From the IMG/VR virus record IMGVR_UViG_3300009168_000433, positions 1-29,758 of that record: a stretch of DNA of 29,758 nucleotides. One strand, 5' to 3'. Below the pieces are notes generated by a model that saw only the letters and a list, made by a program, of their open reading frames with translations, was not told the origin of the DNA and ran no database searches. Shown piece by piece: positions 7,277-8,863 of the stretch; positions within the stretch are counted from its first letter, which is position 1, and the number at the start of each line of letters is the position of its first letter. The DNA is from a virus. The translations under genes and the position numbers were made by a program.

Positions 7277-8863
7277 CTACATTTTAGCAAACTCATTGAT
7301 TATCAATGGGGTTGATGTATCAAATCCTGCCACATCAAGAGCATTAGGATCATCTGGACCTGCTATTGTAAATTCAGTTGCGGTCATACCAATCACAATT
7401 TCTTTTGCGTTGATTCCCGTTTTATCGCGGTATTGTTTCAGGGCTTGTGATGGATGAATGTTTCCAGCCCATGTTTCGTTATCGGTAATCACAACAAATA
7501 CATCAACAGGAATATTATTTTGAAGAGCGTCAATCATTGGTTGTGCGCAATCGGTACGCCCATAATTTACCGAACTGGTTACTTTCATTGCTTGATCTAA
7601 ACTCATATTAGGGCTAATTGGCAAATTGACTAATTCGTCACTAAACCCCTTAATAATATAATTTGGTTCGGATCGCGCAATAACCATCGCCATTGCCGCC
7701 GCGCCCATTGCGGGACTAATAAACTCAATCCCTGCAATACTTCCACTACTCATTGACCCCGACACGTCAACGGCAAGATAAAACCGTTTGCCCGTTGATT
7801 CTACATTGCTAAAAGATTCGTAGAACAGCTTATTTAAAGCATCTGCAATCTGAGGGACAACTTCCCATTCATTACTTCCCTTATATCCCTCCCCTTGTTT
7901 ATAAATCAGCATAGCAGACAGGGCTTGAATAGGGTGAATTCTTGATTTCTTTATTTCATCCTTATCTGAAAGTAGGGTTGTAACCATTTTAATGGCGTCC
8001 CATTCGCCTTGTTTCAATAATCCATAAGCGCCCATATTCCCAAGATTACGGACAATGGCAGTTAATCCAAGATGGGGAAGCAATGCCCGCCACACCTCTT
8101 TTGATTTTCTGTATTCAGTAGGGATGATTTCAAATGGTGCTTGAAATTCATTGATAATTGAGATTATGTCTTTTTCTGATGTTACTTTTTTGGCAAGTTC
8201 AAGTGCGCGCGCCAATCCAATTAATTCGTTCTCGGAATATTTTTTGTCTACCGCCCACTTGAAAAGATTATTGACAACTTCATTTACGGGTTTAGGGTGC
8301 GCTAATCTTAGAATGTCTTTATGCGACCAACCGTCTCGCTGTTGGTATTTTGCTAATTGAAAAGCAACTTTTTCTGGATCTCTGATTTCATACCATTTAG
8401 CTACTGCTTTTCTAACAGCCCGACCCCACCCACGCATACCATCCAGATAATTTACAAAGTGGAATAGATGCGTTCCTATTCTTGCAACTTTAGGAAGTTT
8501 ATCTAAGGCATATTTCTTTTCGGACTCTGTACCATTAGAACACGCAACCGCTAAAGCAAATAAAGCGGAATCGTTTTTGGGCGCGCGTCCCTTGTCTGAG
8601 ATGTCAACAATTAAATCAACTGTTCTTTTATGACCTTCTTTCAAACAAGCTAAAACGCATTTAGCATTATCAAGAGTTAGTTTTCGCTCTTGTACATAAT
8701 AAGTACCGCCCTCAGTGCCAAGAATTAAAAACCGCTCTAACTGTTTGAACTTGTCCAATTGATAGACAAATCCACCGGCATTATTTTCTACCTGGTTTTC
8801 GCCTGGTATCGGTTCATTTTGCGACGTTATTCGTTTATTGAGAACTGAGTATGTGTTTTTCAT
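7277..8863 (-). CDS. rsr: Ro60/Rsr orthologue: TROVE + vWA RNA-binding protein
   Basis: A complete 528-residue Ro60 (human Ro60 is 538). Residues about 30-355 are the TROVE HEAT-like ring, with RFLILGTEGGTYYVQE (44-59), RIGTHLFHFVNYL (128-140), GWGRAVRKAVAKWY (145-158) and RDGWSHKDILRLAHPKP (176-192), all close to animal Ro60. Residues about 358-528 are the vWA domain with an intact metal site: DVSGS (366-370), T437 in GRTDCA, D461 in ITDNET. Ro proteins bind Y RNAs on the ring's outside and single-stranded ends of misfolded RNA in its cavity; bacterial ones work with PNPase and other nucleases. Two Y RNA-like genes lie directly upstream. GGGAGGG precedes the ATG, inside the loop of a small hairpin. 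A morphogenesis operon is an unusual place for it. Confidence 0.95.
   Translation of the reverse strand: MKNTYSVLNKRITSQNEPIPGENQVENNAGGFVYQLDKFKQLERFLILGTEGGTYYVQERKLTLDNAKCVLACLKEGHKRTVDLIVDISDKGRAPKNDSALFALAVACSNGTESEKKYALDKLPKVARIGTHLFHFVNYLDGMRGWGRAVRKAVAKWYEIRDPEKVAFQLAKYQQRDGWSHKDILRLAHPKPVNEVVNNLFKWAVDKKYSENELIGLARALELAKKVTSEKDIISIINEFQAPFEIIPTEYRKSKEVWRALLPHLGLTAIVRNLGNMGAYGLLKQGEWDAIKMVTTLLSDKDEIKKSRIHPIQALSAMLIYKQGEGYKGSNEWEVVPQIADALNKLFYESFSNVESTGKRFYLAVDVSGSMSSGSIAGIEFISPAMGAAAMAMVIARSEPNYIIKGFSDELVNLPISPNMSLDQAMKVTSSVNYGRTDCAQPMIDALQNNIPVDVFVVITDNETWAGNIHPSQALKQYRDKTGINAKEIVIGMTATEFTIAGPDDPNALDVAGFDTSTPLIINEFAKM

Follow-up and report, generated by a model that had tools for sequence, protein, structure and literature searches.

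The window analysed here, the whole 29,758-nucleotide stretch of the IMG/VR virus record IMGVR_UViG_3300009168_000433, carries what is probably an acquired, autonomous Ro60–Y RNA 'moron' within a phage head-gene operon. Ro60 is a ring-shaped RNA-binding protein and a human autoantigen. The cassette comprises an intact Ro60 gene, two Y RNAs and a promoter-like box, forms an insertion between head genes and has no tRNA-like arm anywhere in the window. Ro60 is carried by hundreds of phages, and this cassette lends itself readily to transfer, deletion and assay: it is compact, encodes two 60-nt RNAs and has a promoter-like box of its own, and the corresponding empty site is defined.

The Ro60 gene and the Y RNAs of its leader

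The gene occupies positions 7277–8863 on the minus strand (the initial annotation gave these coordinates exactly, and no strand) and encodes a 528-residue Ro60/Rsr orthologue consisting of a predicted TROVE HEAT-repeat ring and a vWA domain with an intact MIDAS. Pfam searches of the translated protein matched vWA_Ro60 (E = 1.1e-61, with all 165 model positions covered) and TROVE (E = 3.9e-39), and in PHROGs it matched phrog_850, 'RNA-binding protein' (E = 1.7e-79). The best solved-structure match was Deinococcus Rsr (2NVO; E = 4e-127, residues 1–527); human Ro60 (9NEN; E = 2e-120) and Xenopus Ro60 (1YVP; E = 1e-118) also aligned with the full-length protein. With Pfam, PHROGs and solved structures in agreement, chance can be excluded as the source of the Ro60 identity of this reading frame, and the complete orthologue that had been proposed was confirmed. 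The same holds for the TROVE motifs and intact vWA metal site described there: both domains were matched and all MIDAS residues are present (D366-x-S368-x-S370, T437 and D461). Residues K172, R176 and H189 align with Xenopus K170, R174 and H187; for animal Ro60, where the bulged C of the Y RNA and the Y RNA-binding surface have been described, H187 is essential for contact with the RNA (PMC4030889). Loss of Y RNA-binding residues, which the initial annotation named as evidence against its reading, was not seen in the sequence, H189 being conserved. A decayed capture of Ro60 was ruled out by the intact frame and motifs. A GGGAGG ribosome-binding site lies at 8873–8878 (minus strand), and another assembled contig (L002/L166) matches this stretch without differences over 10.2 kb.

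The leader of the gene (8864–9049) holds two Y RNAs, both of which had been overlooked. They were matched using a covariance model, R1, built from an alignment (A2) of 24 short Y RNAs from other loci, with the window left out. In other phages and bacteria these RNAs are found up- or downstream of Ro60 and follow a recurring plan of lower stem, C-CG(A/G), upper stem, GGUUAYC loop, AACUUG and lower stem. The A2 structure was 88% paired, compared with 67% when shuffled and at most 46.5% in slid registers, and double changes in six of the eight lower-stem pairs provide covariation. In the 29.8 kb window R1 gave exactly two matches, on the Ro60 strand and just upstream of the gene. Across 70 viral loci all 110 matches fell on the Ro60 strand, as did 108 of 109 across 76 bacterial loci, giving a total of 219 Y RNA-like elements in 146 loci; such elements adjoin Ro60 in the phages Dandelion, FuzzBuster, Cashline and Sixama. 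As these other phage and bacterial loci gave no match to any bacterial Y RNA family at Rfam gathering thresholds, R1 could support a family in Rfam.

Y RNA 1 (8972–9031, minus strand, 60 nt; 31.1 bits with R1, E = 1.4e-5; fold z −2.1) is composed of a lower stem (GUUGGU/ACCAAC), ACGG with the bulged C, an upper stem, a UUUAUC loop and ACAUUUG. Y RNA 2 (8896–8957, minus strand, 62 nt; 26.4 bits, E = 1.9e-4; fold z −2.8) has the lower stem GGCUGGU/ACCAGCC, ACGG, an upper stem, an AUUAUC loop and CAAUUUG, with UUUUU (8891–8895) directly 3' of it. The hairpin ends are GUUGGUACGG...AUUUGACCAAC for Y RNA 1 and GGCUGGUACGG...AUUUGACCAGCC-UUUUU for Y RNA 2. The bulged C and UUAUC loop occur in both RNAs, which score 26–31 bits against 45–64 bits for canonical Y RNAs and place an A opposite G where nearly all others close with a C–G pair, a GGUACG form that recurs in two further loci (L022 and L039). 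An Rfam search of the window returned nothing at gathering score, Y RNA 2 reaching only 14.7 bits against a gathering score of 38 for Y_RNA (RF00019). Judged from sequence, the two Y RNAs are the strongest evidence for a putatively working Ro RNP, and their adjacency to the gene and their motif suggest that they would bind Ro60.

A TATAAT −10 box (9038–9043, minus strand) ends 6 nt upstream of Y RNA 1 and is well placed for a start at the first base of this RNA; a TTGACA at 9064–9069 is separated from it by a spacer of 20, longer than optimal, and the U5 run follows only Y RNA 2. Because of this spacer, a promoter scan with spacers of 16–18 nt did not flag the Y RNA promoter. At other loci, similar boxes occur 5–8 nt before Y RNAs in 17.6% of cases compared with 1.0% at random positions; with a cut-off of at least 9/12, the frequency of promoter-like pairs immediately upstream of the first Y RNA is about 17 times that at random positions. 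The location of the hairpins in the leader, where they end 33 nt before the start codon, together with the U5 end of Y RNA 2, would also suit an autoregulatory leader acting mainly in cis, with Ro60 binding its own 5' UTR instead of separate trans-acting Y RNAs. We consider such a leader quite unlikely: many phages and bacteria have their Y RNAs in longer arrays or downstream of Ro60, and free RNAs therefore fit.

Insertion into the head-gene operon

The genes that flank the cassette are, as first annotated, MuF and scaffold genes. A MuF-like head morphogenesis gene (9144–10103; Pfam and PHROGs), a scaffold-like gene (6609–7130; PHROGs) and the major capsid protein gene (5726–6589; Pfam and PHROGs) form the backbone on the minus strand. 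The left edge of the conserved backbone is marked by a 33-residue reading frame overlapping the MuF stop (9050–9151, minus strand), which was aligned by eye with its counterpart in a collinear relative, L167. On the other side of Ro60, the scaffold-gene leader (7131–7276, minus strand), with TGCTATAAT and a terminator-like hairpin (7175–7150), also belongs to the backbone and has a counterpart in L167. The hairpin is strong and followed by a T-rich stretch, similarly in L167, and may represent a small RNA or attenuator.

L167 has the major capsid protein (61% identical), scaffold (44%) and MuF (33%), as well as glycosyltransferase and tail genes, in common with the window. Its junction consists of MuF, a small overlapping reading frame, a TGCTATAAT-like box, a hairpin and the scaffold gene; no Ro60 or Y RNA is present at this junction, and no TROVE match was found in the whole 47-kb record. 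In Microcystis phage Mae-JY09 the order is terminase, portal, MuF, a hypothetical gene in the scaffold position, major capsid protein and glycosyltransferase, with no Ro60 at the same junction. The GC3 of Ro60 is 32.5%, compared with 37.9–51.6% for seven other coding sequences. Given the empty sites in L167 and Mae-JY09 and the deviating GC3, the simplest reading is that the cassette (from about 9049 to 7277, minus strand) was acquired; absence from collinear relatives and deviating composition are what is expected of a moron. Ancient loss of Ro60 from the L167 lineage, in place of gain by the phage of the window, is possible, the MuF and scaffold proteins of L167 being only 33% and 44% identical to those of the window. 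At L167:9280–9343, just before the glycosyltransferase gene, an Rfam int-alpA RNA scored above its gathering score.

Between portal and MuF, which are adjacent in Mae-JY09, the window carries a block of approximately 10 kb (10100–20584) with sugar, radical SAM, methyltransferase, DegT aminotransferase and Dam genes, which appears to be a second, larger insert. It includes a TPP enzyme split on the minus strand (10482–12234) into a reading frame for the N-terminal and middle domains (11275–12234) and one for the C-terminal domain (10482–11087), with an 80-residue reading frame between the halves and abutting both; the L167 homologue is likewise in two reading frames. Adjoining the TPP gene, 3.4 kb upstream of Ro60, is a GIY-YIG/NUMOD3 homing endonuclease of phrog_314 (12221–12811, minus strand).

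The position of Ro60 between MuF and scaffold might suggest a late, virion-linked protein, made with the head proteins, with a role in assembly or in the packaging or protection of small RNAs within the capsid. An unrelated phage, L031, whose Ro60 is on a different branch, also has Ro60 and Y RNAs (one of them tRNA-like), with MuF and a homing endonuclease on one side and a head maturation protease on the other. A virion-linked role is nevertheless very unlikely, as the collinear relatives build heads without Ro60, Ro60 lies 8–75 kb away in the other phages in which MuF or terminase was detected, and the cassette has its own promoter-like box; a position between head genes does not imply a role in the virion. 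Since L031 also carries Ro60 by MuF, some advantage of the late-operon position is possible. The endonuclease directly upstream of Ro60 in L031 also belongs to phrog_314, and our guess is that homing endonucleases may help such insertions. Ro60 as a usual part of phage head operons was rejected, MuF being near Ro60 only in L031 among 52 other viral records, in only six of which MuF was detected.

Ro60 in other phages and bacteria

The novelty that the initial annotation implied for a phage Ro60 did not survive comparison with GenBank, in which 355 phage records match the window protein (tblastn), many of them annotated 'Ro-like RNA binding protein'; the best are 39–43% identical to it. Ro60 or TROVE proteins have also been mentioned in mycobacteriophages (PMC12363180) and in jumbo phages (PMC7824862; PMC7765460). 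With these records and published mentions, phage Ro60 itself was already known, and what is new is the pair of minimal Y RNAs beside it and its clean insertion. In most phages examined, Ro60 is far from head genes and near replication genes or tRNA arrays. The timing of cassette expression, which we infer, may include late expression by read-through. The operon position does not imply it, contrary to the initial annotation: the cassette has its own promoter-like box, the site is empty in relatives, Ro60 elsewhere is mostly far from head genes, and the crAss001 TROVE gene, the sole phage TROVE gene for which timing was found in the literature searched, is early (PMC8375218).

Phylogenetic comparison with bacterial and animal Ro60, a check named in the initial annotation, did not place the window protein near the animal protein. 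In a tree of 165 proteins, obtained by a quick search and with many weak forks, it falls in a clade of 67 rows (62 viral, four bacterial and the window; SH-aLRT 98), with a viral protein (L020) as its sister and that of an Anaerolinea contig (L086) next. Viral and bacterial proteins are interleaved and at least nine label changes are needed on starred branches, which argues for repeated exchange of Ro60 between viruses and bacteria. The Anaerolinea metagenome-assembled contig has, upstream of Ro60, a dense array with more than 30 tRNA genes (L086:762–4385) and may be a phage or mobile element.

tRNA-like arms and putative function

Of 84 viral and 80 bacterial loci, 70 and 64, respectively, have an exact T-arm motif no more than 1.2 kb from Ro60 (0–4 in shuffles); the window has none at that distance. 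Counting T- and D-arms alike, 71 of 83 viral loci have one next to Ro60; the phage of the window is one of the 12 without. No permuted T-arm/D-arm of the YrlA type was found beside the window Ro60, although the record is a fragment and a tRNA-like Y RNA could lie elsewhere, and the window has no tRNA genes. Bacterial tRNA-like Y RNAs (YrlA) resemble the window RNAs in the Ro60-binding lower stem, bulged C and conserved loop and differ from them in having a T-arm and D-arm. Probable Y RNAs close to Ro60 were reportedly found by Chen et al. in 2014 in over 250 bacteria and phages, with at least one Y RNA per species said to bear a tRNA-like domain. We tentatively suggest that the cassette might be a pared-down Ro RNP that has only two minimal Y RNAs, made up of the Ro60-binding stem and UUAUC loop, and no tRNA mimic. 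Were this so, it would be a natural test of Ro60 with core Y RNA alone during infection, and it would mark the UUAUC loop, which nematode stem-bulge RNAs (sbRNAs) also have, as the putative ancestral functional core.

The tRNA-like arms on the Y RNAs of many relatives, the location of Ro60 within tRNA arrays in many of them and the placing of TROVE proteins with RNA repair in a jumbo-phage review (PMC7824862) would be in keeping with counter-defence or RNA repair, in which Ro60 and Y RNAs protect or replace RNAs, tRNAs among them, that host nucleases have cleaved. For this phage such a role seems unlikely, as the window contains no tRNA-like arm, tRNA or Rfam RNA and no RNA ligase was found among the window proteins scanned.

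For the autonomous cassette that we favour, the promoter at Y RNA 1 would drive the two short Y RNAs and Ro60, possibly with extra transcription by read-through from the late operon. Y RNA binding, cavity gating, recruitment of PNPase through tethering by the Y RNA, and RNA fate in infection are proposed by analogy with Deinococcus radiodurans and animals. Each Y RNA would use its lower stem and bulged C to attach to the outside of the Ro60 ring, and the bound RNA would stabilize Ro60 and partly cover the surface used by other RNAs; for this reason the RNP would capture the ends of misfolded or structured RNAs and, perhaps together with the PNPase of the host, alter which host and phage RNAs undergo decay and which escape it. 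In D. radiodurans, bacterial Ro60 binds Y RNA and an Rsr–Y RNA–PNPase complex (RYPER) is formed (PMC4726728). That Rsr is a full-length homologue of the window protein (residues 1–527), whereas the window Ro60 is phage-borne and accompanied by two Y RNAs of about 60 nt, and a link to PNPase is only putative here. The Ro60 proteins of Mycobacterium, Streptomyces, Gordonia and Microbacterium phages belong to the same family (phrog_850; 39–43% identity) but lie near replication genes or tRNA arrays with mostly tRNA-like Y RNAs, unlike the window Ro60, which is flanked by MuF and scaffold genes and accompanied by two minimal Y RNAs.

The UUAUC loop is reported to be conserved in sbRNAs and vertebrate Y RNAs by a review that describes bacterial Y RNAs as not homologous to the vertebrate clades (PMC4726728). 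The motif occurs twice in the window, in RNAs that fall below Rfam thresholds, and the match argues for a possible common core of bacterial or phage and animal Y RNAs; convergence on the same protein is also possible. Through structure and sequence, R1 connects short Y RNAs from bacteria and phages with nematode sbRNAs (RF01656): one short Y RNA from the R1 set, which has the UUAUC loop and lies beside Ro60 in a Verrucomicrobia contig (L101:1365–1434), scored 41.0 bits against RF01656, above the gathering score of 38, and was aligned to that family with UGGGUUAUC and CAACUUG.
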